From: Stenotrophomonas indicatrix
GTDB taxonomy: Bacteria > Pseudomonadota > Gammaproteobacteria > Xanthomonadales > Xanthomonadaceae
Direction: 5' to 3'
Assembly (NCBI GenBank): GCA_041545745.1
Contig: CP168152.1
Coordinates: 370,001-434,000 of the forward strand
Length of the DNA: 64,000 nucleotides
Shown here one piece after another: positions 41,403 to 55,656 of this stretch. Each line of letters begins with the position of its first letter. Within the stretch, counting starts at the first letter, position 1. The translations under genes and the position numbers were made by a program. A model generated the notes under the pieces. It worked only from the letters and a program-made list of their open reading frames with translations. It made no database searches and was not told the DNA's origin.

Positions 41403-42704
41403 TCAATCGGCGCCGGCGTCCCTGCGCGGCAGCTTGTAGATGACCGCGCCAACAGCGAAGGCGACCAGCGCCGCAGCGATGTTCTGCCAGCTGGCACTGG
41501 CGAACAGGGCCACGCACAGCAGCAGGGCCAGCACCGGAATCAACGGGCCACCGGGCAGCTTCAGCGCACCGGGGCGGTCCGCATAGCGCTTGGCCAGCAC
41601 CAGCACCGCTGCTGCAGTACCGATGTAGGCGAACAGGCGCGTGGTCATCGACAACAGCGCCAGCTGCACGAACGACCCGGACAGCGCCAGGCCAAGGGCG
41701 ATCAGGCCCTGGCAGAAGATCGCTGCAGCCGGGGTGCGGAAGCGCGGGTGCACCTGCGCCAGCACCTTCGGGCCGTAGCCATCGCGTGCCAGGGCGAACA
41801 GGAAGCGCGGGCCCATCATCATCGTGTTGCTGTTGGTGCCGAGGATGGAGATGGTCGCGCCCACGGTGAGGATCAGCGCCAGCGCCTCGCCGCCGAAGCT
41901 GGAGGCGGCGTCAGCCAGCGGTGTGGCCGAGCTGGCCAGGCCGGGCAACGTGCCCTGCGCCACGATCTGCACCGCCGCGTAGATCACGGTGACGGTGACG
42001 ATCATGGTGATCAGTGCGAAGGGAATGTCGCGGCGTGGGTTGCGGTATTCACCGGCTGCGGCCGGGATGTTCTCGAAGCCGGCATAGGCATACAACAGCA
42101 ACAGCGCTGCCTCGCCCATGCGCTGCAGGTCGTGCGGGTCCGGGCGCTGGCCGGAGAAGGCGAGCTGCGGGTCGATATAGAACGCGCCGATGGCCACGAA
42201 CAACAGCAGCGGCAGCATCTTGCCGATCACCAGCACGATGCCGGTACGGGCGGCCGAACGGACGCCGATGATGTTCACCCCGGTCAGGAAAGCGAGCGAG
42301 ACCACGATGATCGCGATGCGGCCCATGCCGGCACCTGCCCATGGCCAGAACCGCGCCACGGCATCGGCCAGCGCATTGCTGAGCGCTGCGGCAGAGCTGA
42401 TGCGGGTCAGCCAGATCATCCAGCCGATCTCGAAACCGGCAAAGCGGCCGAAGGCTTCGCGCGCGTACAGGTAGCTGCCACCGGGTTCATCGAAATAGCT
42501 GGCCGCCTGCGCGTAGCACAGCACCAGCAGGGCGACGACGATGCCGGCGGCGACTACGCCCCACAGGCTGAAGGGCCCGAGCAGGGCGACCGTGGCCGCC
42601 GGCAGCAGGTAGATGCCGCTGCCGACCACATCGTTGATCGACAGTCCGACGATCTGCCAGCGGCTGACCGCGCGTTGCAGTTGTGGTTCGTCGGCGGTGC
42701 TCAA
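41403..42704 (-). CDS. APC family amino acid permease
   Basis: 433 aa with about twelve membrane spans. The N-terminal VGLSINDVVGSGIYLLPA is the APC substrate-binding signature, followed by EPGGSYLYAREAFG. The substrate is probably an amino acid. Its start overlaps the stop of the YkuD-type gene by 4 nt (ATGA), and it is the last gene of the minus arm of the peptidoglycan-peptide locus. Import of Ala or Glu, or of the corresponding D-forms, would fit (inference). Confidence 0.9.
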   Translation of the reverse strand: MSTADEPQLQRAVSRWQIVGLSINDVVGSGIYLLPAATVALLGPFSLWGVVAAGIVVALLVLCYAQAASYFDEPGGSYLYAREAFGRFAGFEIGWMIWLTRISSAAALSNALADAVARFWPWAGAGMGRIAIIVVSLAFLTGVNIIGVRSAARTGIVLVIGKMLPLLLFVAIGAFYIDPQLAFSGQRPDPHDLQRMGEAALLLLYAYAGFENIPAAAGEYRNPRRDIPFALITMIVTVTVIYAAVQIVAQGTLPGLASSATPLADAASSFGGEALALILTVGATISILGTNSNTMMMGPRFLFALARDGYGPKVLAQVHPRFRTPAAAIFCQGLIALGLALSGSFVQLALLSMTTRLFAYIGTAAAVLVLAKRYADRPGALKLPGGPLIPVLALLLCVALFASASWQNIAAALVAFAVGAVIYKLPRRDAGAD

Positions 42705-43465
42705 CGTGCGGCTCCTTCAAGCGCGGGCAGTTTCCACTGCGCCTGCAGGCGTTGGTATTCGGCGCGTGGCAACAGCACGAAACGCGGCGTGTCCTGCGGG
42801 CGCAGCCAGTCCAGCAATGCCTGCATGCGCGCCTGTGGCATCGCGGTACAGCCAGCGGTGGCCTCGCCGGGCTGGCGCCACAGATGGGCAAAGATGCAGC
42901 TGCCCTTGCCGGGCTGGTTATCCGGGTTGTGCGCGATCACGAAGCCTTCCTGGTAACGCACGTCGCCCTTGTTGTGCAGGTCCAGCCGCATCGGTTCGGT
43001 GGAGCCGGTGATGGCGGCACTGCCAACCTTCTTTGCATCGACGATGCGGTTGTAGAACGGCGATGCCGGTACGTCCATGCAGTAGCTGGTGCTGCTCATC
43101 GGCTGGTAGGTCATCGCCGTTCCGGGCCGGGTGACGGCATAACCGAACGCGCTGCCCAGCGCGAACACACCGGCCGGACTGCGGCCGTCGCCTTCCTGTT
43201 TCTGCGGGCCATCGGCCTGGGCAGTATGCAGGCCCAGGCCCCAGGCACTACCGGTGCGGCCCAGCGCCACCGGGAAGGCCTGGCCGTGCTTGCGCCATTG
43301 CTTGCCGTCGCGCACGAAGGCCTGCAGCTGCCCCTGCGTGCTGTCCCAGTTTTCGCTGGTGACGACGATCAGTTGGCGAGCCTCATCCAACGGGGCGGCA
43401 TGGACAGTGACGGCCGCCACGAGCAGCAGCGCGGCGGATGCAAGGCGGGCCAGCAGCAGGTTCAT
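42701..43465 (-). CDS. L,D-transpeptidase-like (YkuD-type) exported protein
   Basis: 254 aa with signal peptide to about residue 23 (MNLLLARLASAALLLVAAVTVHA). The catalytic Cys lies in EATAGCTAMPQARM, with the upstream histidine in GFVIAHNPDNQPGKGSCIFAH, the pattern of the COG3786 branch of L,D-transpeptidases. It could cut or form L,D bonds in peptidoglycan stems. It lies 12 bp after the RpiR-type regulator gene and is coupled to the permease gene. Confidence 0.87.
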   Translation of the reverse strand: MNLLLARLASAALLLVAAVTVHAAPLDEARQLIVVTSENWDSTQGQLQAFVRDGKQWRKHGQAFPVALGRTGSAWGLGLHTAQADGPQKQEGDGRSPAGVFALGSAFGYAVTRPGTAMTYQPMSSTSYCMDVPASPFYNRIVDAKKVGSAAITGSTEPMRLDLHNKGDVRYQEGFVIAHNPDNQPGKGSCIFAHLWRQPGEATAGCTAMPQARMQALLDWLRPQDTPRFVLLPRAEYQRLQAQWKLPALEGAAR

Positions 43466-43477
43466 CGGGCGCTCCGG

Positions 43478-44326
43478 TCAGGAATCCAGCAGATGATCGA
43501 TCCGTTCCAGGTTCACCGCCAGCTGCTGCTGGCGATCCGGATTGGCGTGGCAGAGGAGCACGAACAGGAAATCGAGCAGGGCGTGCATGGCGCTACGGTA
43601 CAGCAGCTGCGCCACCTGCGGCGCGCGATCGTGCGCGCATACCACCAGCGCCGCATCGGCGTGCGCGCGCAGGGGATTGGCGGTGTGACGGGTGATCGAC
43701 ACCACCTTGCCGCCCATGTCCTGGAACTGGCGCGACAGCTGCGAAAGCTGCGGCAACTTGCCGAACTCGGAGAACATCAGCAGCACGTCGCCCGGGCGTG
43801 CGGCGGACAGGTTGGCCAGCATCAGGATCGGATCGGTATGCGGCACCACCAGCAGGCCGAGCAGCGACAGCCGCATGGCGAATTCGCGTGCGTACAGACC
43901 GTCGTCACCCAGGCCGTGGACAAACAGCTTGGGCGCGCCGTCGAGCAGCTGCACGATGCGCTCGATCTCCTCGCGCGGGTTGGCCTGGCGGGTCTCTTCC
44001 TCGGCCTGCGCCTTGCTGCGGCGCAGGGCGTCACCCAGGCGCAGGTAGTCATCGTTGATGTCCGGTGCGGCCGGCGCCTGCTGCGGGTCGGCACCGGCGC
44101 GGGCGACGTCCTCGCCGATGGAGTACTTCAGGTCCGGGTAGCCCTTGAAGCCGAGCTTCTGGCTGAACTTGACCACGCTGGACTGGCTGATGCCCAGGGC
44201 ACTGGCCAGCTGCTGCGAGGAGTAATCGCGCAGCAGGTGGGCGTTGTCGAGGATGAAGTCGGCGATGCGGCGTTCGATGGCCGACATCTGCCCGCGCTCG
44301 GTGCGGATTTTCAGCAGGGGCGGCAT
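43478..44326 (-). CDS. MurR/RpiR family transcriptional regulator with SIS domain
   Basis: 282 aa. It has an N-terminal helix-turn-helix of the RpiR type (ERRIADFILDNAHLLRDYSSQQLASALGISQSSVVKFSQKLGF) and a C-terminal sugar-isomerase (SIS) fold (FVHGLGDDGLYAREFAMRLS, LMFSEFGKLPQLSQLS). Such proteins sense phosphorylated sugars such as MurNAc-6-P. Here a muropeptide-derived signal is likely, because all neighbours act on peptidoglycan peptides. The likely target is the inverted repeat at 47180-47193. ATG 44326 is chosen; the longer open frame reads through a repeat element. Confidence 0.9.
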   Translation of the reverse strand: MPPLLKIRTERGQMSAIERRIADFILDNAHLLRDYSSQQLASALGISQSSVVKFSQKLGFKGYPDLKYSIGEDVARAGADPQQAPAAPDINDDYLRLGDALRRSKAQAEEETRQANPREEIERIVQLLDGAPKLFVHGLGDDGLYAREFAMRLSLLGLLVVPHTDPILMLANLSAARPGDVLLMFSEFGKLPQLSQLSRQFQDMGGKVVSITRHTANPLRAHADAALVVCAHDRAPQVAQLLYRSAMHALLDFLFVLLCHANPDRQQQLAVNLERIDHLLDS

Positions 44327-44391
44327 GCGGGGCGTCCGGGCATGTGTAGGCGCGTTGCGTTTGGTCGCGTAGAGCTTGTCATGGAGTGGGG

Positions 44392-44489
44392 CGGGCGGGT
44401 GGGATTTGCGGCGGACGCAGCAAGTACGTCCGTGTAGGCTTGGCCGCCGCATCCATGCGGCGGACACCCCAGCAAACCCCACCCGCCCG
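44392..44489. repeat. Nested inverted repeat, type A (98 bp)
   Basis: The outer arms are CGGGCGGGTGGGATTTGC (44392-44409) and its near-complement (44472-44489), with one mismatch. They enclose a GGACGC...TACGTCC segment, then TGTAGGCTTGG, then the palindrome CCGCCGCATCCATGCGGCGG. The order and core match the copy at 54155-54256. Confidence 0.75.
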
Positions 44490-44559
44490 ACCCCGGACAG
44501 ATCGCGCGCGCGCCAGCCGCGAAGGGGGTGCGGGGTAGGGCAAAAGCAAGGGCAAGGGC

Positions 44560-44582
44560 ATCCACGCATGGCGTGGATCTAC
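44560..44582. repeat. SMAG-type GTAG palindrome (ATCCACGC subclass)
   Basis: ATCCACGC-atg-GCGTGGAT-CTAC, next to the end of the epimerase gene. Confidence 0.8.
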
Positions 44583-44609
44583 TGATGGCGGCGATCGTTG
44601 TTTCAACGA

Positions 44610-45704
44610 TCAACCGAGCATCTCCAACCCCCGCACTTCGGTGATACCCAGCCCCGGCACGTCGCTGATGCTGATCTCCGACTCGTTGAAGCGCACCCCG
44701 CCGCTGACCGGATCGAACTGCCCCAACGATGGGCCATCCAGGTCGACCTTGGTGATCACATCGCTCTTGGCTACCGCCAGATGTACTGCCGCGGCCACGC
44801 TGATGCTCGACTCGATCATGCAGCCGATCATGCACGGCACGCCGTAGATGCCGGCGATGTCGGCAATGCGGATCGCGTTGGACAGGCCGCCGGTCTTCAT
44901 CAGCTTGATGTTGATGATGTCGGCGGCGCGCTGCTGGATCAGGTCCATCACCTGGCTGGGGCTGAACACGCTCTCGTCGGCCATCACCGGAGTGTTGACC
45001 CGGTCGGTGACATACTTCAGGCCGCTGATGTCGGCGGCCTTGACTGGTTGTTCCAGCAGCTCCAGCACCACGCCTGCTTCTTCCAGCGTGCGCATCGCAT
45101 GCACGGCCTGCTTGGCGGTCCAGCCCTGGTTGGCGTCCAGGCGCAGCAGTGCACGGCCCTCCACGGCGGCATGGATCGCCTTGACCCGCTCGATGTCCAC
45201 GCCGATGTCCTTGCCGACCTTGATCTTCAGCGACTCGAAGCCGCGTTCGATCGCCGACAGCGAATCGGCCACCATCTTGTCGATGTAGTCCACGCTGATG
45301 GTGATGTCGGTGGTGATCACCGGGTCGCCGCCACCCAGCATCTGGTACAGCGGCGCGCCATGCAGCTGCGCCCACAGATCGTAGAGCGCGATTTCCACCG
45401 CCGCCTTGGCGCTGGTGTTGCGCTCCATCGCGGTCTGCACCAGCGTGCACAGGCGGTTGAGGTTGACCACCTCCTGACCGATCAGGCGCGGGGCGATGAA
45501 GTGGCGGATCGCTTCGATGATAGAGCCGTGGGTGTCACCGGTGATCACCGCAGTGGCCGGTGCCTCGCCGTAGCCGGTGTGGCCGGTGTCGGTGCGGATC
45601 AGCACCACCACGTCTTCCACGGTCTCCACGGTACGCAACGCGGTCTTGAACGGTGTTTTCAGCGGCACGCGCAGCATGCCGAGTTCGATGGCGGTGATCT
45701 TCAT
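44610..45704 (-). CDS. L-Ala-D/L-Glu-type dipeptide epimerase (enolase superfamily)
   Basis: Cytoplasmic enzyme of 364 aa that epimerises dipeptides such as L-Ala-D-Glu from murein. The enolase-superfamily residues are in order: the KxK acid/base lysines in LKIKVGKD, metal ligands RLDANQGW, LELLEQPV and MADESVF, and the second lysine in NIKLMKTGG. The ATG follows the stop of the NlpC/P60 gene with no gap, indicating an operon with translational coupling. Assignment to L-Ala-D/L-Glu substrates is from family likeness and context (YkfB of B. subtilis, YcjG of E. coli). Confidence 0.9.
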   Translation of the reverse strand: MKITAIELGMLRVPLKTPFKTALRTVETVEDVVVLIRTDTGHTGYGEAPATAVITGDTHGSIIEAIRHFIAPRLIGQEVVNLNRLCTLVQTAMERNTSAKAAVEIALYDLWAQLHGAPLYQMLGGGDPVITTDITISVDYIDKMVADSLSAIERGFESLKIKVGKDIGVDIERVKAIHAAVEGRALLRLDANQGWTAKQAVHAMRTLEEAGVVLELLEQPVKAADISGLKYVTDRVNTPVMADESVFSPSQVMDLIQQRAADIINIKLMKTGGLSNAIRIADIAGIYGVPCMIGCMIESSISVAAAVHLAVAKSDVITKVDLDGPSLGQFDPVSGGVRFNESEISISDVPGLGITEVRGLEMLG

Positions 45705-47150
45705 TCAGGGATTCTTGGCACGCAGGCGTTGGATGTTGGTGATGCGGTCGATGTAGCGGACGCTGTCGCTGGCCATCATCGGCTCCAGCGGCGTGACCGA
45801 TACGCCATTGAGATGGGCCTGCACACGCTTGCCGTCGGCGCCGAACCAGCTGCCGCCCGCGGTATCGTGGATCACCCAGGTGCGACCGTCGACGTGGCCG
45901 ATGGCCATCATCACGTGGCCGGGGATGTAGACCAGATCGCCCACCTGCAGATCGGTGACGGCACGGTCGCGCACGGCCTTGCCGTCCTTGCTGGTGAACG
46001 GCAGGCGGTCCAGCGCCGGGCTGATCGCCTGTGCGCTGGTATTGCGCGGCAACAGTACGCCGAAGCTGCGATAGATCTCCGATACGAATCCACTGCAATC
46101 GCGGGTGTCGTAGTCGTGGCCCCAACCGTAGCGCTCGCCGAGGAACTTGAACGATTGCTGCAACAGCAGGCGCGGGGTCAGTGGCAGGTAGTCGGCGGCG
46201 GTGTCCTGCGAGCGCGGCAGCAGCGCCGGCATCAGCTTCAGGCGGCCATCGGCCTCGCGCACCGGCAGCTGCACCACCCACGAGGCGTGCGCCTGTTGCC
46301 CGTTCACCGGTTCGGCGGAGGGCCAGTCGGCCAACACCGGCAGGCGCACGCCCATGTCCAGCTGCAGGCGCGATACGCGCGGTTCTTCGGGTGTGTAGGC
46401 GGTGTGCGCTGTGGCAGCGGTGACGATGCGGTACGGGCCCTTCGCGCCGTAGCCGAGCACCGTGGCCTTGTCACCGCTGGCCACCGCATCGGCTTCGATC
46501 CATGCGCTGTAGCGCTCGCTGTGCACGAACAGCCAGCGGCCGTCGGTGCTGCGGTGGACGACGGCAACCTTGTCACCCGGGAACAGTGCCGACTCCTGGA
46601 AGCGGTCGATGTCGGTGTCGCCGACCGTGCTGAAAACACGCTGGCGGGTGGGGAAGGTGCGCAGCGCAGCGCGCTTCACCACCAGCCCGTACGACGGTGC
46701 GACCTGCGCAGGAACCGCGTCGAGGCCGAGGTTGGCTTCGATTGCAGCCCGCAGGCCGGGGGCGATGGCTTGGCCCTTCTGGTCATACAGCGCCCGCTTG
46801 GGCCAGCTCGAAAGCGCGACGATGCTGTCGCGCACCTGCGTGGCGCTGAGCTGTGCGGGCAGCGTGGCGATGTCCTGGATGTGGCTGTCCTGGGCGCGCA
46901 TCCGCGCGTTCTGCGCATTGATCTGCGCGCGGTCCAGGATCGGTGCGTCGGCGTTGTCCAGCCGTGCGCCCCAGTAGTCCGGGGTGAGGTAGGCCTCATG
47001 CAGGCCGATCACGTAGGGCAGCGGGGCGCCGGGGTCGGGTGCTGGCGTGGCCGCCTGGGTGAATGCGGATGCGCCCAGCAGGCCCAGGGCCAGTGCCAAG
47101 GTCAACCGGTGCGGCCAGTGCCGACGCGGTTCGCGGGAAGCCAGGATCAT
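45705..47150 (-). CDS. NlpC/P60 (C40) endopeptidase with SH3-like domain, exported
   Basis: 481 aa. The N-terminal signal (LTLALALGLLGASAFTQA) is followed by an SH3b-type region (residues about 150-260: AALRTFPTRQRV, GDKVAVVHRSTDGRWLFVHS). The C-terminal NlpC/P60 domain carries DCSGFVSEIYR (catalytic Cys), PGHVMMAIGHV (His) and a third residue after it (WVIHDTAGG). This resembles gamma-D-glutamyl-L-diamino acid endopeptidases (YkfC type), which release L-Ala-D-Glu from stem peptides. The next gene, an epimerase, processes that product. ATG 47150 is chosen over GTG 47159 because GAGGAGG lies 10-11 nt upstream of the ATG. Confidence 0.9.
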   Translation of the reverse strand: MILASREPRRHWPHRLTLALALGLLGASAFTQAATPAPDPGAPLPYVIGLHEAYLTPDYWGARLDNADAPILDRAQINAQNARMRAQDSHIQDIATLPAQLSATQVRDSIVALSSWPKRALYDQKGQAIAPGLRAAIEANLGLDAVPAQVAPSYGLVVKRAALRTFPTRQRVFSTVGDTDIDRFQESALFPGDKVAVVHRSTDGRWLFVHSERYSAWIEADAVASGDKATVLGYGAKGPYRIVTAATAHTAYTPEEPRVSRLQLDMGVRLPVLADWPSAEPVNGQQAHASWVVQLPVREADGRLKLMPALLPRSQDTAADYLPLTPRLLLQQSFKFLGERYGWGHDYDTRDCSGFVSEIYRSFGVLLPRNTSAQAISPALDRLPFTSKDGKAVRDRAVTDLQVGDLVYIPGHVMMAIGHVDGRTWVIHDTAGGSWFGADGKRVQAHLNGVSVTPLEPMMASDSVRYIDRITNIQRLRAKNP

Positions 47151-47179
47151 GCGCTGCACACCCTCCTCGAATGCCTGTT

Positions 47180-47193
47180 GGAATATTTATTCC
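47180..47193. promoter_or_regulatory. Inverted-repeat operator (GGAATA-TT-TATTCC)
   Basis: Perfect 6-bp inverted repeat GGAATATTTATTCC, overlapping the -10 box of the minus-arm promoter (47184-47189). It is the best candidate site for the RpiR-type regulator encoded at 43478-44326. Confidence 0.6.
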
Positions 47194-47211
47194 TTTTGGC
47201 TTCGAAAGCAA
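47184..47211 (-). promoter_or_regulatory. Promoter of the peptidase-epimerase arm
   Basis: On the minus strand TTGCTT (47206-47211) and TAAATA (47184-47189) are spaced by 16 nt. Transcription would start near 47177, with GAGGAGG at 47162-47168 and ATG at 47150. Confidence 0.6.
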
Positions 47212-47212
47212 G

Positions 47213-47223
47213 AATAAATTATT
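47213..47223. promoter_or_regulatory. Second inverted repeat in the divergent region
   Basis: AATAA-A-TTATT, perfect 5-bp arms, about 30 bp (three helical turns) from the first repeat, placed on the side of the plus-strand genes. It could be a second regulator site or part of the plus-arm promoter. Confidence 0.45.
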
Positions 47224-47282
47224 GACCGGTCCCCCGGCCCGTGTTACACAGCCGTTACCACCCGCGCTTGGGAAGTGTCGCT

Positions 47283-48755
47283 GTGGATCCTGCCGTTCGC
47301 AAACCGTCTCTGCCTGCCGCTGCCGGCCTTGGTGCCGCGCTGCTGCTGTGGGCGTGCTCGGCAGGGGCTGCAGATCAGCGCAGTGCCATCGATCGTGAGC
47401 AGGAAACGCGGCTGATCGATCTGGTCGACAGCGGTCATTTCAGGGATGTCGATGCGACGTTCGCCGCAGACGGCGTGCCTCCGCCCGCCGACTTCCAGTA
47501 CGAGCGCATGCGCCGCATCCAACTGGATTTCAGCCTCGACGAAGCCGCAGCCAAGGCCGCCGTTCGCCGCTGGATTCCCGACCTGACCGACGAGGAATTC
47601 GCACGCTGGGACCAGCAGGGCCTGATCGAGCACTACGATATCGACGGCACACGCTGGTACTTCAAGCGCGCGCCCTCCAACCTGTTCCTGCTCAGCGACG
47701 AGGCGCGTGCGCGGCGCCGAGCCGATGCACCGATGCCACCGCCCGGCCCGAATGAAGTGCTCAATGCACATCACACGCGTGTGGTTGCTGCCGCCGAACA
47801 GAGCGGCAAGGCATCCGTGTTGCCGCAGCGCATCGAATTCACCCAGTCGCTGACGGTGAAAGCGGATGCCGTGCCGGCCGGCGAAACCGTACGTGCATGG
47901 ATTCCGTACCCGCGCGAGATTGCCGGCCAGCAGGAGCGCGTGCAGTGGATTGCCAGTTCGCCGGGCAAGGCGCGCATCGCCCCGGCCAGCACCCAGCAGC
48001 GCACCGCCTACCTGGAAGCCAAGGCGGTGGCTGGGCAGCCGACGCACTTTGAAATCCGCTATGCAGTGACGATCTTCGCGCGCCACATCGCCATCGATCC
48101 GACGAAGGTGCAGGCTACGCCGAATGATCCCGCACTGAAGCCCTATCTGGCCGAGCAGCTTCCGCACGTGCGCTTCACCCCGGCGTTGAAGCTGTTCTCC
48201 GATCAGGTGCTGCAGGGCGAGATACGCCCATATGAAGTGGTACGCAAGCTGTTCGCCGCCGTCGACCGCATTCCGTGGGCTGGTGCACGCGAGTACTCGA
48301 CCCTCAGCAACATCAGTGACTACGCGCTGCGCGCCGGTCACGCTGATTGCGGGCAGCAGACCCTGCTGCTGATCGCCCTGCTGCGCATGAACGGCATTCC
48401 CGCGCGCTGGCAGTCGGGCATGGTGTTCTCCGACGATGGCAGCGGCTACAACAACCTGCACGACTGGGGCCAGGTCTACCTGGCGCCGTATGGCTGGCTG
48501 CCGATGGATGTTACCACCGGCGCGCTGGCCAGCGACACGCCCGCGCTGCGTGACTTCTACCTGGGTGGCCTCGATGGCTACCGCATCGCCTTCAACGACG
48601 ATTTCGGCTTGGCGTTCGTGCCGGCCAAACAGCACTACCGCTCGGAAACGGTCGACTCGCAGCGTGGCGAGGCCGAGTGGTCAGGCGGCAACCTGTACTT
48701 CGACCAATGGAGCTATGACTTCCAGTGGCGGGTACTGCCAGCCGGGCAACGCTAG
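47283..48755 (+). CDS. Transglutaminase-like (papain-fold) exported protein
   Basis: About 490 aa with an N-terminal signal (PAAAGLGAALLLWACSAGAA; the WACSAG may be a lipobox or a plain cleavage site). A helical region follows (VDSGHFRDVDATF...), then a beta-rich part (RIEFTQSLTVKADAVPAG). The transglutaminase core has its triad in AGHADCGQQTLLLIALLR (Cys), YNNLHDWGQVYL (His) and GWLPMDVTTG (Asp). Members act as proteases or peptide-modifying enzymes. GTG 47283 with GGAAG 8 nt upstream is preferred to the longer GTG 47241. It heads the plus arm of the locus. Confidence 0.85.
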   Translation: MDPAVRKPSLPAAAGLGAALLLWACSAGAADQRSAIDREQETRLIDLVDSGHFRDVDATFAADGVPPPADFQYERMRRIQLDFSLDEAAAKAAVRRWIPDLTDEEFARWDQQGLIEHYDIDGTRWYFKRAPSNLFLLSDEARARRRADAPMPPPGPNEVLNAHHTRVVAAAEQSGKASVLPQRIEFTQSLTVKADAVPAGETVRAWIPYPREIAGQQERVQWIASSPGKARIAPASTQQRTAYLEAKAVAGQPTHFEIRYAVTIFARHIAIDPTKVQATPNDPALKPYLAEQLPHVRFTPALKLFSDQVLQGEIRPYEVVRKLFAAVDRIPWAGAREYSTLSNISDYALRAGHADCGQQTLLLIALLRMNGIPARWQSGMVFSDDGSGYNNLHDWGQVYLAPYGWLPMDVTTGALASDTPALRDFYLGGLDGYRIAFNDDFGLAFVPAKQHYRSETVDSQRGEAEWSGGNLYFDQWSYDFQWRVLPAGQR

Positions 48756-48805
48756 CGCGACACACCACCCCACCACCATTCAATTCTTGCAGGAGAGAGC
48801 AGGGG

Positions 48806-51805
48806 ATGAAGGCTTACATCATCAAGCGGGCGGCCTTGTGCGTCGCCCTCGGTACGTGTCTGGCAACGCTGGCACCCAGCGCATTCGCACAGGACGGCGC
48901 GGTCGTCGGTCGCCTGACCAGCGATGCGGGGCAGGTGCCTGCCGGCGCCACGGTCACGGTCCGCAATCCCGCCACCGGTTTCGTGCGATCGGTACAGGCC
49001 GACAGCAAGGGCAGCTATCGCATCCCGTTGCTGCCGGTCGGCACCTATGACATGGAGGTAAGCCTGCCAGGCGGTGCTGCCAGCCGCGTCGGCCAGGTCA
49101 CGGTCAGCCTGGGCAGCGCAACCACGGTGAACGTGCCGCTGGGAGCGGTCAGCACGCTGGGCACCGTGGAAGTGCGCGCGCCGCAGGTGGTGTCGATGGT
49201 GGACGTGAAGTCCACCGAGTCGGCCACCAACATCACCCGCGAAGAACTGTCGCGACTGCCGGTGGACCGTGACATCACCGCAGTGGCGCTGCTGGCGCCG
49301 GGTGCGGTGAAAGGCAAGGGCTCGCTGGGCGGACAGGGCATTTCCTTCGGTGGCTCGTCGGTGGCCGAAAACACCGTCTACATCAATGGCCTGAACGTCA
49401 CCGATTTCTATAATCGGGTTGGCTTCTCGTCGGTGCCGTTCGCGTTCTACCAGGAATTCCAGGTCAAGACCGGCGGCTACTCGGTGGAGTTCGGGCGCAG
49501 CACCGGTGGTGTCATCAATGCGGTCACCCGCTCGGGCAGCAACGACTTCAAGGCCGGTGCGGAACTGGTGTTCGAGCCGCGTGCTTGGCAGTCGCAGGCG
49601 CGCGATCGCTATGACGGCAAAGGCAGCCGCTACATCTCCGCCCGTCGCGACGACTATTCGCGCAGTGCACTGAATGTGTTCGCTTCCGGTGCGCTGGTGC
49701 AGGACAAGCTGTTCTTCTTCGGCATGTACGAGGCACGCGACTATCGTCCGACCTCGACCAATGACGCCGGCACGTTCCTCAGCCAGGGCAAGGCCGATGA
49801 GCCCTTCTGGGGCGGCAAGCTGGATTGGCAGATCACCGACAACCAGATGCTGTCGCTGTTCGGCTTCTCCGACAAGAACAAGACCCTCACAGACGTCTAC
49901 CGCTACGACTACGACGGCGGCGACATCGATGGCGAACGCAGCAACCAGATCGTCAACACGGTGGGCGGAAAGAACTGGTCTGGTACCTACAGCTGGCAGG
50001 TCAACAACGATCTGACCATGAAGCTGATGTACGGTGAGAACAAGCGCAACCGCGTGCAGAGCTCTCTGATGGACGAGAACTGCAACCGCGTGTTCGACAA
50101 CCGTACCGCGGCCCAGGGCGTGCCACCGAACCTTCAGGGTGACCGCAGCTGCACCAGCAGTTCGCAGCTGGAAGCGGCGCTGGATACGCGCAAGGCTGCA
50201 CGCGCCGACTTCGAATGGTCGCTCGGCAACCACCTGCTGCGCTTCGGCCTGGACCGCGAAGAGAACACCTCCGACTACGAGCGTGCCTATCCCGGTCCCG
50301 GTGGGCTGCGTTATGACATCTATTACCGGAATCCGGGCAGCCCGCTCAATGGCGGTACCGTACCTGCCAGTGGCCTGGTGGCACGCACCCGCCGCTATGA
50401 AGTGGCTGGCTCGTTCGAAACCATCAACTCGGCGTACTACCTGGAAGACAATTGGCAGGTCACCCCGAACTTCCTGCTCAACATCGGCGCACGCGTGGAG
50501 AGCTTCGACAACAAGGGCGGCGACGGCGACAGCTACATCAAGATCGACAACATGATCGCCCCGCGCCTGGGCTTCTCATGGGACGTGCGCGGTGACGGCA
50601 CCACCAAGGTGTTCGGCAACCTGGGCCGCTACTACCTGCCGGTGGCCAATGTCATCAACATCAAACAGGCTGGCGGCTTCCTCGATGAGCGCACCTGGTA
50701 CGAATTCCTGGGCTACACCGGGGCCGCCAACAACATCCCGAACCTGGGTGGGCAGATCGGCCCGGTCGACAATTCGCAGGGCGATGGCAGCGTGCCGGAC
50801 CTGCGCGCCGAGGTGAACCGGGACATGGACCCGGTCTACCAGGATGAGGCGATCCTCGGCTTCCAGCACATGCTGAGTGAATCGTGGTCGGTCGCCGCCA
50901 GCGTTACGTACCGGCGCCTGAGCAATGCCATCGATGACATGAACATCACCGCCACCGGCCAGTGCGGTGCGATTGACGGCGTGTGGATCATGGGCAATCC
51001 GGGGCGCACCAACACGGTGTGGGGCGATACCAATTGCGATGGCAGCAACGATGGCTGGATCGACATCGACACCTCAAAGGAAGGCTGGGCGCTGTATGAC
51101 GACGACGGCAATTACGTGGGCCAACGCGGCTGGGTGAAGCCCAAGCGCGACTACAAGGCGCTGGAACTGCAGGTCGACCGTGCGTGGGATGGCAAGTGGG
51201 GCTTCAATGCCTCGTATACGCTGGCTTACGGCCGCGGCAATGCGGAAGGTCCGGTCAACTCCGATACCGACTTTGCCGACGCCGGCCGCACCGAGAACTT
51301 CGACAATCCTTGGGTCAACTACCGCGGTTATGGCTACCTGGCCAATGATCGCCGCCATCAGTTCAAGTTCCGCGGCAGCTACGCGCTGACCGAGAACCTC
51401 AGCGTGGCGGCCACCCTGGGCGTGCAGTCGGGCAGCCCGATCACCCGCTTCGGCGCCGGCAATCCGTTCGACGATACCGATTTCCACAGCTACTACGTGT
51501 GCGTGTCCAACTGCCAGTCGACGGTGCCCTCTGAACGTGTGTTCGTGCATTCGCCGCGCGGTGGCGATGGCCGTACGCCGTGGACCTACGACCTGGACGT
51601 GAGCGTTTCCTACAAGGTGCCGATTCCCACCGACCTGCGCCTGAAGCTGGCGGTATACAACGTGCTCAACCAGCAGCGCGTGGTCACCGTGGACCAGGAC
51701 TACGAACCGCAGGACAGCATCGGCACGCCGAACACGATGTATGGCTACGGCACCGGTTTCCAGTCGCCGCGCTATGCGCAGCTGACGGTGACCTGGAACT
51801 ATTGA
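48806..51805 (+). CDS. TonB-dependent receptor, Oar-like
   Basis: Outer-membrane transporter of 999 aa. The order is: signal peptide to about residue 30 (ALGTCLATLAPSAFA); a carboxypeptidase regulatory-like domain (GAVVGRLTSDAGQVPAGATVT...YRIPLLPVGTYDMEV); a plug domain (STESATNITREELSRLPVDRDI, VYINGLNVTDFYNRVG, VEFGRSTGGVINAVTRSG); and a long barrel ending in a C-terminal aromatic residue (RYAQLTVTWNY). AGGAG precedes the ATG. In this locus it is the natural entry gate for peptides or muropeptides (inference). The substrate is not shown by sequence alone. Confidence 0.93.
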   Translation: MKAYIIKRAALCVALGTCLATLAPSAFAQDGAVVGRLTSDAGQVPAGATVTVRNPATGFVRSVQADSKGSYRIPLLPVGTYDMEVSLPGGAASRVGQVTVSLGSATTVNVPLGAVSTLGTVEVRAPQVVSMVDVKSTESATNITREELSRLPVDRDITAVALLAPGAVKGKGSLGGQGISFGGSSVAENTVYINGLNVTDFYNRVGFSSVPFAFYQEFQVKTGGYSVEFGRSTGGVINAVTRSGSNDFKAGAELVFEPRAWQSQARDRYDGKGSRYISARRDDYSRSALNVFASGALVQDKLFFFGMYEARDYRPTSTNDAGTFLSQGKADEPFWGGKLDWQITDNQMLSLFGFSDKNKTLTDVYRYDYDGGDIDGERSNQIVNTVGGKNWSGTYSWQVNNDLTMKLMYGENKRNRVQSSLMDENCNRVFDNRTAAQGVPPNLQGDRSCTSSSQLEAALDTRKAARADFEWSLGNHLLRFGLDREENTSDYERAYPGPGGLRYDIYYRNPGSPLNGGTVPASGLVARTRRYEVAGSFETINSAYYLEDNWQVTPNFLLNIGARVESFDNKGGDGDSYIKIDNMIAPRLGFSWDVRGDGTTKVFGNLGRYYLPVANVINIKQAGGFLDERTWYEFLGYTGAANNIPNLGGQIGPVDNSQGDGSVPDLRAEVNRDMDPVYQDEAILGFQHMLSESWSVAASVTYRRLSNAIDDMNITATGQCGAIDGVWIMGNPGRTNTVWGDTNCDGSNDGWIDIDTSKEGWALYDDDGNYVGQRGWVKPKRDYKALELQVDRAWDGKWGFNASYTLAYGRGNAEGPVNSDTDFADAGRTENFDNPWVNYRGYGYLANDRRHQFKFRGSYALTENLSVAATLGVQSGSPITRFGAGNPFDDTDFHSYYVCVSNCQSTVPSERVFVHSPRGGDGRTPWTYDLDVSVSYKVPIPTDLRLKLAVYNVLNQQRVVTVDQDYEPQDSIGTPNTMYGYGTGFQSPRYAQLTVTWNY

Positions 51806-51874
51806 GGACGCATCTGCGCGCCGCCCTGCGGGGCGGCGTGGTTTGATGACTGCCGACGCCTGACGGAGACTGCC

Positions 51875-53425
51875 TTGCATCGTCTGTTGCTACTGACCGC
51901 AGCACTGGTCGGTCCCGCTGCGCATGCGGTGGACACCGCACGCCTGGACGCCGATGCCGCCTTTGTGGTCCAGCACGAGCACCTGCCGGGGATGGCGATG
52001 GCGGTGGTCGAGGATGGCCAGGTGGTCTATCGCCATACCGAAGGTGCACGCGGTGACGGCGGCCGCATCGACGAGGACACGCTGTTCAAGATCGCCTCCA
52101 ACAGCAAGGCGATGACCGCCGCGCTGCTGGCCACGCTGGTGGAGCAGGGAAAGCTGCGCTGGGATGATCCGGTGCAGCGCCATCTGCCGGCGTTCCGCAT
52201 GCATGACCCATGGGTGGGCGAACACCTGCAGGTACGCGATCTGCTGATCCACAACAGCGGCCTCGGCCTGGGTGCCGGCGACCTGATGCTATGGCCCGAA
52301 CCCAATGCCTTCACCCGCGCCGATGTCATCGCCGGGCTGGCACACCTGAAGCCGGTCACCAGCTTCCGCAGCGGCTACGCCTACGACAACCTGATGTACG
52401 TGGTGGCCGGTGAGGTGGCTGCGGCCGCCGGTGGCAAGCCCTATGACCAGCTGATGCGCGAGCAGGTGTTTGAACCGCTGGGGATGACCCGTTGCCAGGT
52501 AGGCGCGTGGTCGGTGAAGCAGGTCGGCAATGTCGCCCAACCGCATGCGTGGCGCGATGGCCGCAACGTGGTGGTCGGTGGTGATGGAACGCAAAGCCCC
52601 GATCTGACGTCGATGGCGGCCGGTGGCATCCGCTGTTCGCTGCGCGACATGACGCGCTGGATGCAGGTGCTGCTGGACCCGTCGCTGGCACCGGCGTGGT
52701 TGGGCGCCGAGCAACGCCGCATGCTGTGGACGCTGCACATGCCGATGCCGTGGGGCGAACGCCAACGCGACTGGGAGAACGCCCGTTTCTACGGCTATGG
52801 GCTGGGGTGGCGGGTGTCGGACATGGACGGGCAGTGGAAGGTTGCACATACCGGTACGTTGTCGGGCATGTATTCCTCGCTGGCGCTGCTGCCGGATCGC
52901 AAGGCCGGTGTGGTGATGCTGATCAACGGCGAGGGCGAAGAGGCCCGTACCGCGTTGATGCAGTCGACGCTGAAACAGTTCACCGCGCCGGAAGACGCAC
53001 ACCCTGCCGCGTACTACCTGGCGGAGCTGGCGGCCGATCGAGCCATGCGTGCTGCCACGGGGAGTCGTGCGCCCTCCACCAGGGCTGCGCAACCGGCGGC
53101 TGCCACCGATCTGGCGCAATGGCAGGGACGCTACCGCGATCCCTGGCTGGGCCCTGCCTCGCTGTGTCCCACCGCGAACGGCCTGCGCTTCAGCGTGGAC
53201 AAGTCGCCCGCGTTGCACGCAACAGTGAAGCAGCTGGAAGGGCGCTGGCTGTTGCAGTGGGATACGCTGGAACCCTCGGCGCAGGCGTGGCTGAATCCCG
53301 GTGCAGACACGCCGACGCTGGAGCTGCGCGCCATCGATCCGGAGATCGACTTCAGCTATGACTTCCAGGACCTGCATTTCACTCGTACTGGCGATTGCCC
53401 TGGCACCGGCGGCCCACGCCGCTGA
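51875..53425 (+). CDS. Beta-lactamase-fold serine hydrolase (class C / D-aminopeptidase-like), exported
   Basis: 516 aa, TTG start with CGGAG upstream, and signal peptide MHRLLLLTAALVGPAAHA. The catalytic motifs are SxxK in IASNSKAMTAALL, YxN in GYAYDNLMYVVAG, and HTG in KVAHTGTLSGMYS. The C-terminal 130 residues form a separate domain (LAQWQGRYRDPWLGPASL) seen in related esterases and D-amino-acid peptidases. It may hydrolyse D-Ala- or D-amino-acid-containing peptides. Its 3' end overlaps the dipeptidase gene by 68 nt. Confidence 0.88.
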   Translation: MHRLLLLTAALVGPAAHAVDTARLDADAAFVVQHEHLPGMAMAVVEDGQVVYRHTEGARGDGGRIDEDTLFKIASNSKAMTAALLATLVEQGKLRWDDPVQRHLPAFRMHDPWVGEHLQVRDLLIHNSGLGLGAGDLMLWPEPNAFTRADVIAGLAHLKPVTSFRSGYAYDNLMYVVAGEVAAAAGGKPYDQLMREQVFEPLGMTRCQVGAWSVKQVGNVAQPHAWRDGRNVVVGGDGTQSPDLTSMAAGGIRCSLRDMTRWMQVLLDPSLAPAWLGAEQRRMLWTLHMPMPWGERQRDWENARFYGYGLGWRVSDMDGQWKVAHTGTLSGMYSSLALLPDRKAGVVMLINGEGEEARTALMQSTLKQFTAPEDAHPAAYYLAELAADRAMRAATGSRAPSTRAAQPAAATDLAQWQGRYRDPWLGPASLCPTANGLRFSVDKSPALHATVKQLEGRWLLQWDTLEPSAQAWLNPGADTPTLELRAIDPEIDFSYDFQDLHFTRTGDCPGTGGPRR

Positions 53426-54071
53426 GCCGCCACGCATTTCGCCCGCCACCGACGCCGCTGCGGCGGGATTGGTGGAGATCCGCACGTTGTCGCCGCGCAT
53501 CGAGATGGACATCCGCTATGCCGGTGGCAACAACTTCACCGCTGCGCCCGTGCCCGGCTATGAGGCGCCTGCATGCTACCTGCTGGCGCCGGTGGCAAAG
53601 GCCTTGGCCGATGTGGAGGCCGACCTGCGCGCGCAGGGTTTTGCGCTGCGCCTCTACGATTGCTATCGCCCGGTGCGCGCGGTGCAGGCGTTCATGGCTT
53701 GGGTGAACGATCCGCAGGAACAGTCGCGCAAGCCACTGCAGTATCCGGATCTGGACAAGCCGCAGCTGCTGAGCGACGGCTACATCGCCGAGCGTTCCGG
53801 CCACAGCCGCGGTGCCACCGTGGATCTCGGCCTGCTGGATTGTCGCAGCGGACGCTGTACGCCGACGGACATGGGCACCGACTTCGATTTCTTCGGCCCA
53901 CGCGCGCATACGCAGGCGCCGGGTTTGAGTGATGCACAGAACGCCAACCGCCAGCAGCTGGTGCAGGCGATGGCACGACGTGGTTTCACCAACTATGCGC
54001 AGGAGTGGTGGCACTACACGATGCAACCCGAGCCGGATGCCGGTACCGCCTACGACGTGCCAGTGCGGTAG
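53358..54071 (+). CDS. D-alanyl-D-alanine dipeptidase (VanX/DdpX-type), exported
   Basis: 237 aa with signal peptide MTSRTCISLVLAIALAPAAHA. The zinc site is shown by RSGHSRGATVDLGLLD (SxHxxGxAxD) and EWWHYTMQ (catalytic Glu and third ligand), plus LYDCYRPVRAVQAF with the conserved Arg. It cleaves D-Ala-D-Ala or similar dipeptides. Export places it in the periplasm, so it would degrade dipeptides coming through the TonB receptor rather than change vancomycin target precursors, which are made in the cytoplasm. The start overlaps the previous gene by 68 nt. Confidence 0.93.
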   Translation: MTSRTCISLVLAIALAPAAHAAEPPRISPATDAAAAGLVEIRTLSPRIEMDIRYAGGNNFTAAPVPGYEAPACYLLAPVAKALADVEADLRAQGFALRLYDCYRPVRAVQAFMAWVNDPQEQSRKPLQYPDLDKPQLLSDGYIAERSGHSRGATVDLGLLDCRSGRCTPTDMGTDFDFFGPRAHTQAPGLSDAQNANRQQLVQAMARRGFTNYAQEWWHYTMQPEPDAGTAYDVPVR

Positions 54072-55009: not shown

Positions 55010-55236
55010 CGCAGGTTTTTCGTTTGCTGCCGGTTAAATCAGGTAGCGCTGAATGCTCGTCTTACTCCCTGCTCACTTCGCACTAACCACCGCGCTAAAG
55101 CATGCGTCTGCGTGAGTGGTTAACCGTGCGTGTTCGCGTCGATCGCGGCGCAAAATCGATTCAGAAATGCGGTGGCAGGGTAGGTGCCGTGCGGAAACAA
55201 CGACCGCGCACTACCACCCTTCAGGAGACACCCCAG

Positions 55237-55656
55237 ATGACTATTCGCAACCGCAAGCCCCTGATCGCCCTGATCGTCGCCGCCGGCAGCGTGTTGGCCA
55301 TCCCGGCGATGGCACAGACGGCCAAGCAGCAGGCCGCGCATGCACAGAACGAAGCGGCGCAGGCCCAGCAGGCGGCGACACAGGCAGGCCAGGCGGCCGA
55401 CCAGGCGACCGGTGCGGCCGCAGCGGCGTCGGCGCAGGCCAACGGCGGTGGCCAGACCTGGGCCAGCATCGATACCGATGGCAACGGCACCATCAGCAAG
55501 AGCGAGTCGCAGGTGAATGCGGGCCTTGCACAGGTGTTCGACCAGGCTGACAGCAACAAGGACGGCGAACTGAGCGCCGATGAGTACAAGGCCTACGTGG
55601 CTGCCCAGCAGGCCGGTGCCGGCGCGGGTGGCACGGCCGCAGGCCAGGGCCGCTGA
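55237..55656 (+). CDS. Exported EF-hand protein with Ala/Gln-rich segment
   Basis: 139 aa. Signal peptide MTIRNRKPLIALIVAAGSVLAIPAMA, a helical stretch of mostly Ala and Gln (AKQQAAHAQNEAAQAQQAAT), then two EF-hand loops (DTDGNGTISKSE and DSNKDGELSADE), and a Gly/Ala tail. Likely calcium-binding in the periplasm. AGGAG lies upstream, and a strong terminator follows. Confidence 0.9.
   Translation: MTIRNRKPLIALIVAAGSVLAIPAMAQTAKQQAAHAQNEAAQAQQAATQAGQAADQATGAAAAASAQANGGGQTWASIDTDGNGTISKSESQVNAGLAQVFDQADSNKDGELSADEYKAYVAAQQAGAGAGGTAAGQGR

Follow-up and report, generated by a model that had tools for sequence, protein, structure and literature searches.

A probable murein stem-peptide catabolism locus with an exchanged TonB-dependent receptor in Stenotrophomonas indicatrix and its relatives

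We analysed a window of 64,000 nt from Stenotrophomonas indicatrix (GCA_041545745.1, contig CP168152.1, positions 370,001-434,000); all coordinates of the locus below are positions in this window. Nine open reading frames (ORFs) from the ORF list, at 41403-54071, form two divergent arms, and together with their conservation in relatives they point to a dedicated, RpiR-controlled locus by which Xanthomonadaceae and kin would catabolise murein stem peptides, with a route fed by an outer-membrane receptor. We put the probability of this reading at about 0.65. The initial annotation had described these nine genes as a complete scavenging system for peptidoglycan peptides; its genes and family assignments all held, each gene having at least one Pfam match above cut-off.

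In transcription order, the minus arm starts with an NlpC/P60 protein (45705-47159; Pfam SH3_6 and NLPC_P60), a predicted gamma-D-Glu-diamino acid endopeptidase that is predicted to be exported. It is followed by a YkfB-like dipeptide epimerase of the L-Ala-D/L-Glu type (44610-45704), a member of the enolase superfamily that matches PDB entry 1jpm and in which a signal peptide was not seen. Next come an RpiR/MurR-type regulator (43478-44326; Pfam HTH_6 and SIS), a YkuD-domain protein that is predicted to be exported and is probably an L,D-carboxypeptidase (42701-43465; Pfam YkuD, 32 bits against a cut-off of 23.4), and an amino-acid permease of the APC family (41403-42704; Pfam AA_permease_2, 162 bits). 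The plus arm encodes a transglutaminase-like protein with a conserved Cys-His-Asp triad (47241-48755; Pfam Transglut_core), a TonB-dependent receptor whose type we take to be Oar (48806-51805), a serine hydrolase with a beta-lactamase/DD-peptidase fold (51875-53425; Pfam Beta-lactamase, 215 bits) and a VanX-type D,D-dipeptidase of family M15 (53358-54071; Pfam Peptidase_M15; PDB 1r44). All three enzymes of this arm are predicted to be exported. The receptor has the CarboxypepD_reg, plug and barrel domains expected of an Oar-like protein, and its sequence is called allele A below. Signal peptides were judged by eye on the N-termini. The likely starts of the receptor and the VanX-type gene, both ATG, were our choice, while the RpiR start at 44326 was read from the ORF; the chosen VanX-type start overlaps the 3' end of the hydrolase gene.

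A divergent promoter lies between the two arms. It contains a candidate RpiR operator, GAATATTTATTC (47181-47192), which is the only exact match to the palindrome GAATAWWTATTC in the 4.66-Mb genome; two further sites in the genome match with one mismatch. Allowing one mismatch, 40 of 77 divergent intergenic regions contained the palindrome, and other locus DNA, 1.54 Mb in all, had a single occurrence. Because the intergenic regions share ancestry, these 40 occurrences do not count as independent, although this leaves the palindrome's uniqueness in the genome untouched. In the remaining 37 loci, including most of those with a DUF819 gene, the palindrome was not found within one mismatch. RpiR is the presumed binder because of its place in the operon. 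A second promoter element, AAGAATAAATTATTGACC (47210-47227), stood out by its conservation when 29 intergenic rows were aligned; its last six bases, TTGACC, resemble a -35 box of the rightward arm.

The epimerase, the NlpC/P60 protein and the transglutaminase-like protein were searched in the same set of 198 Xanthomonadaceae genomes. They occurred in 124, 136 and 92 genomes, respectively, and these occurrences were perfectly nested (92 within 124 within 136). The epimerase tally was at first 126, from which two weak matches (E-values of 6e-23 and 5e-26) were left out, and split or partial matches (e.g. in genomes G081, G192 and G135) were scored as present. In G081 and G192 the match falls into two adjacent pieces, which may reflect a broken gene or a misassembly. 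The epimerase and NlpC/P60 genes were at most 6 kb apart in 121 of the 124 genomes, and the same distance separated the transglutaminase-like and NlpC/P60 genes in 90 of 92 genomes, the remaining two having them on separate contigs. Hence, the grouping is real. Hypergeometric values for this co-occurrence take no account of relatedness among the genomes and are not used as probabilities. In a draw of 369 genomes from the class, which showed just one member of the order from outside the window's family, the transglutaminase-like gene was present in four, all of them from the window's family and one of them the window's own genome.

Gene content was compared in two sets of loci. The first comprised 60 stretches of 12-20 kb chosen from epimerase matches, some of them cut by contig ends or the 20-kb limit. 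Here, NlpC/P60 was found in 58 loci, YkuD, RpiR and the receptor in 47 each, the transglutaminase-like gene in 45, the serine hydrolase in 44 and the VanX-type gene in 29. Accessory genes were a GltP-like symporter (26 loci), the APC permease (22), LysA (12), Amidase_2 (11, from two queries), DUF819 (10) and a second type of receptor (8). Two stretches of this set came from one genome, G057: L078 and L079 are epimerase clusters about 22 kb apart on the same contig, with different companions.

The second, named set comprised the best 80 of at least 564 stretches encoding a relative of the transglutaminase-like protein, with one genome per species; since it was found through this gene, it is silent on absence of the module elsewhere. 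Going by record titles, it spans Stenotrophomonas, Pseudoxanthomonas, a Xanthomonas sp., Luteimonas, Lysobacter, Dyella, Luteibacter, Rhodanobacter, Frateuria, Dokdonella, Steroidobacter and Povalibacter, and it also includes genome bins and two records that are mislabelled or renamed. One Stenotrophomonas locus with its flanks (L110) is filed under the record title Bacillus subtilis subsp. subtilis SK7B5, almost certainly through contamination or a mislabelled assembly. RpiR was present in 72 of the 80 loci. We defined YkuD, RpiR, epimerase, NlpC/P60, transglutaminase-like, receptor, hydrolase and VanX-type genes as the eight core genes, and 53 of the 63 named loci longer than 20.9 kb contained all of them. 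Gaps included YkuD in two Luteimonas loci (L129, L165), and YkuD together with the VanX-type gene in the Steroidobacter locus L156. Forty of the 63 long loci lacked any tracked flanking gene of the window, and 30 of these 40 kept all eight core genes; gene order was consistent in 36 of the 40, loci that had been found through one of the eight genes. Chance clustering was set aside, given the nested and adjacent occurrence in the 198 genomes and a core retained without its flanks.

Catalytic residues were counted in the complete frames of 140 loci; the 60- and 80-locus sets overlap in some genomes, so not all frames are independent. The best PDB match of the epimerase was 1jpm, an L-Ala-D/L-Glu epimerase (E-value of 3.6e-105) that we take to be B. 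subtilis YkfB, its closest relative among solved structures. The two have their catalytic segments in common. These segments and the D-x-D dipeptide motif have known residue roles; the D-x-D and KxK patterns were each conserved in 132 of 136 loci and FKTALR in 131 of 136. The NlpC/P60 protein had RDCSG in 134 of 135 loci and the stricter GHV pattern in 117. For the M15 protein the only PDB match was VanX itself (1r44; E-value of 1.6e-41), with which SGHSRGATVDL, EWWH and DCYRP align; we take these to hold the zinc ligands, the catalytic Glu and Arg71. EWWH was found in all 92 loci and the stricter SGHS pattern in 79 of them. The serine hydrolase has the three motifs of AmpH-type DD-peptidases, with YxN and HxG in 105/105 loci and the SxxK pattern in 101/105. 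In the transglutaminase-like protein DCG and HDW were invariant (125/125). A PDB sequence search with this single protein gave nothing useful and its profile gave just 3isr (E-value of 0.0034), while its fold weakly resembles pseudomurein endoisopeptidases.

The canonical active-site motif of YkuD-type L,D-transpeptidases is (S/T)HGC. This motif was absent from the YkuD protein, which has TAGC instead (16/16 aligned sequences); TAGC(T/V)A(M/L) was present in 111 of 113 loci. PDB sequence searches with it gave nothing useful. The first-ranked fold match of a low-confidence structure model (pLDDT 64) was Campylobacter Pgp2 (6xj7), from the Pgp2/Csd6 group of L,D-carboxypeptidases, with an E-value of 0.02 that is too weak for a firm assignment. 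The domain assignment of the initial annotation stands by its Pfam score, but the canonical transpeptidase role was set aside for lack of the motif, and the protein more likely serves as an L,D-carboxypeptidase.

Membership of the receptor in the module, as had been proposed, is supported: a receptor gene comes directly after the transglutaminase-like gene in 44 of the 45 loci that have the latter in the first set and in 76 of 80 in the second, and the receptor was present in 47 of the 60 epimerase-found loci and in 62 of the 63 long named loci. In two Dyella loci (L133, L141) LysA comes after the transglutaminase-like gene, and the interval between the two gave no receptor match. At this one fixed position we found at least three receptor alleles, which have been exchanged among close relatives. 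Within the genus, the receptor of the window is 97 and 93% identical to those of two loci, versus 47-50% to those of six others, and the neighbouring transglutaminase-like and hydrolase proteins show no such split (60 to 88%). Loci L031 and L033, for instance, share 92% identity in both flanking proteins and 49% in the receptor. DNA identity between the window and L031 is 92%, drops to 57-66% at the receptor gene, and then rises to 75 and 86%. The signal peptide is common to the alleles and divergence begins just past it. Identity between alleles A and B is only about 49%, and conservation is higher at the end of the plug than over most of the barrel. Loci L100, L102 and L112 carry a third type, which has about 64% identity to the receptor of the window. 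In L047, from another genus, the receptor is 81% identical to that of the window, the transglutaminase-like protein only 61%.

A tree of 34 rows was built from the joined epimerase, NlpC/P60 and transglutaminase-like proteins by a quick method that flagged long branches, with receptor types assigned by identity beforehand. The 13 rows with receptor A did not form a clade (p-AU 1.7e-62), and the A and B rows required a minimum of six type changes. Sister rows with differing receptor types were L121/L124, L100/L101, L108/L112 and L103/L109. The receptor frame of L124 may be interrupted, because it was extracted short, yet aligns with type B along 99% of its length (86% identity). Two receptor copies per genome were considered as a source of the alleles; against this, each of 12 genomes searched had a single receptor match of at least 48%, the next best reaching at most 39%. 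Repeated exchange of receptor alleles is a new finding, made on this one receptor. One explanation of their differences, less likely than not, is that each allele imports its own cargo, instead of phage or bacteriocin selection acting against common types; it is compatible with any of the readings of the locus discussed below. The low identity of A and B and the better-kept plug end favour it; the same genes stand beside each allele wherever the contig reaches in the S. maltophilia-complex loci (L099-L109, L111, L112), which argues against it.

Several observations bear on the substrate. LysA exceeded its NCBIfam cut-off within the cluster in 12 of the 60 loci, where it co-occurs with the GltP-like symporter and DUF819 in loci that are related by descent. 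In the 11 genomes tested of these 12 loci, the locus-borne LysA was always a second, stand-alone copy; the other copy sits in a long frame of 876-1214 codons. Long LysA frames of this kind fit a fusion with aspartokinase. All six tested genomes without LysA in the cluster had a single copy. As diaminopimelate is fairly specific to murein (and to lysine synthesis), the extra LysA is the best single pointer to murein. AmpD-like Amidase_2 proteins occurred in 11/60 and 15/80 loci. The second LysA and these amidases in relatives point to murein stem peptides. Among the nine genes themselves, Pfam revealed no glycosidase, muramidase or amidase family, so that sugar-free stem peptides are a likelier cargo than the muropeptides named in the initial annotation, of which the murein-peptide part is supported by co-conservation and the extra genes of relatives. 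The term 'complete' was also too strong, because the locus in the window has no muramidase, amidase, terminal dipeptidase or known dipeptide importer and its permease slot varies. Peptidase_S66C (PF17676) was not found in the genome by a search that was positive in 6 of 14 control genomes, which leaves the YkuD protein as the most plausible enzyme to remove the fourth-position D-Ala. Likewise, SBP_bac_5 (PF00496; OppA/MppA-type) was not found by a search positive in 11 of 14 control genomes, and a PTR2 carrier (four matches at three places in the genome) or the local permease is therefore a candidate for import.

Gene content, linkage, the kept catalytic residues, the palindrome's uniqueness and the receptor exchange are direct observations; all substrates, the locations, the transport and the regulation are inferred as follows. 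The Oar-type receptor would bring sugar-free, possibly still cross-linked murein peptides across the outer membrane. Among the periplasmic enzymes, the transglutaminase-like protein may open some amide bond, the beta-lactamase-fold hydrolase and the YkuD protein would trim D-Ala, the VanX-type enzyme would split D-Ala-D-Ala, and the NlpC/P60 enzyme would cut gamma-D-Glu-diaminopimelate. L-Ala-D-Glu and free amino acids could then enter via the APC permease here, via GltP-like or DUF819 proteins in relatives, or via PTR2 carriers encoded elsewhere in the genome. The epimerase would yield L-Ala-L-Glu in the cytoplasm, to be finished by peptidases, and in relatives the locus-borne LysA would convert diaminopimelate to lysine. 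RpiR would repress both arms at the shared promoter. Catabolism of murein peptides by the locus is highly probable, supported as it is by co-conservation and by the diaminopimelate decarboxylase and amidases of relatives, and scavenging fed by the receptor is reasonably probable. Uptake of foreign murein peptides is likely, as foreign-wall scavenging best accounts for a dedicated receptor; feeding on other bacteria, as originally proposed, is nonetheless an indirect deduction, and some relatives have no receptor.

A number of observations weigh against this reading. The full set of eight core genes was found in just 22 of the 60 epimerase-found loci, and the transglutaminase-like gene was absent from 32 of the 124 epimerase genomes. 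In many relatives the permease slot alternates between unrelated families, APC or the GltP-like Na:dicarboxylate symporter (e.g. at 12981-14261 of L041); APC and SDF occurred together in 0/60 and then in 1/63 loci. No receptor was detected at the thresholds used in 10 of the 60 loci, within 12-20 kb, a count qualified by a second-type receptor ORF in L061 and L084 and a distant one (29%) in L090. Four loci (L077, L080, L088, L089) keep YkuD, epimerase and NlpC/P60 with the receptor absent from the stretch, so the enzymes can be retained alone, perhaps only recycling the cell's own wall. Moreover, the genome carries Mpl, an alternative fate for stem peptides. These last two observations, and the lack of amidase and muramidase families among the nine genes, fit an explanation in which the enzymes serve periplasmic recycling of peptides from the cell's own wall turnover, with the receptor mostly recovering leaked peptides or transporting some other cargo. 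We consider this unlikely, since most loci include the receptor in the module with the shared promoter and the extra locus-borne LysA suggests a surplus of diaminopimelate, which would be less needed for own-wall recycling.

Other observations against stem-peptide catabolism concern the identity of the enzymes. The epimerase scored below the NCBIfam equivalog cut-offs (NF041118, 250.5 of 500 bits; NF011708, 118.1 of 343 bits), as did the VanX-type protein for VanX (179.6 of 320 bits) and the hydrolase for AmpH (106.1 of 266 bits). Two residues that bind the free N-terminus, a tyrosine and an aspartate, define the YkfC-like subfamily, according to excerpts of PMC2954226. Tyr118 in the SH3b domain of B. 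cereus YkfC aligns with Tyr217 of the NlpC/P60 protein (hand-derived chain numbering), which is invariant in 11/11 aligned sequences, but Asp256 of YkfC is replaced by Asn373, and Asn is found in 11/11. The corresponding PRNT occurs in 133 of 135 loci, with a YkfC-like Asp in the two exceptions, both from Rhodanobacter (L164, L175). As 3m1u also has Asn at this position, the protein is filed beside 3m1u, not as a member of the YkfC-like subfamily. The missed cut-offs and this substitution would suit a locus that degrades other D-residue or gamma-glutamyl peptides, such as secreted natural products or poly-gamma-glutamate, and the epimerase and peptidase families do have members with other substrates. 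Murein, however, is the substrate that best fits the VanX-type, YkuD, NlpC/P60, YkfB-like, diaminopimelate decarboxylase and AmpD-like families jointly, which makes such a role very improbable.

Several known systems resemble parts of the locus. YkfA of B. subtilis is presumably an S66 protein. In B. subtilis ykfABCD and B. cereus ykfBC, as in the window, a YkfB-type epimerase adjoins an NlpC/P60 peptidase, and B. cereus YkfC has been argued to be extracellular and is predicted to be exported, with dipeptide import proposed (PMC2954226, in part). Unlike ykfABCD, with its LD-carboxypeptidase and oligopeptide-binding components, the genome studied here has no Peptidase_S66C or SBP_bac_5 match, and the locus adds the outer-membrane receptor and the VanX-type, transglutaminase-like and YkuD proteins. 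The E. coli murein tripeptide pathway (MpaA, YcjG, PepD; same excerpts) shares the L-Ala-D-Glu epimerase step, whereas the window has NlpC/P60 in place of MpaA and an outer-membrane receptor of its own next to the enzymes. Tannerella forsythia, also Gram-negative, uses external peptidoglycan fragments, but through AmpG-type inner-membrane permeases, and the start of the abstract mentions no TonB receptor with stem-peptide enzymes (PMC5388701). Caulobacter N-acetylglucosamine (GlcNAc) clusters likewise group a TonB receptor with catabolic genes for a wall component, although, as far as the consulted part of PMC13046382 goes, for a sugar and with GntR-type regulators instead of a peptide and an RpiR-type regulator. 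Our literature search, which covered titles and abstract starts, found no description of the locus; subscription papers and preprints were outside its scope, and an earlier description is possible.

If the proposed stem-peptide catabolism is correct, many common bacteria of soil, plants and the clinic hold a regulated means of using wall peptides from dead neighbours as food, or of recovering their own. This route would run through an identified outer-membrane receptor, making peptidoglycan-peptide uptake testable by removal of single genes. The exchanged receptors are also a natural allele series with which the forces behind the swapping of outer-membrane importers can be studied. A bolder combination, in which the locus holds the first TonB-dependent outer-membrane importer dedicated to murein stem peptides and, in the transglutaminase-like protein, a hitherto unrecognised bacterial enzyme that opens peptide cross-links, with alleles balanced by phages or bacteriocins entering through the receptor, is rather doubtful.

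Outside the locus, a small EF-hand protein is encoded downstream (55231-55656) and recurs in 30 of the 80 named loci. At the other end of the window, positions 1-2000 have a GC content of 0.54 and a GC skew of 0.16; the GC content is 0.61 over the 2 kb that follow and 0.63-0.69 across the remainder.

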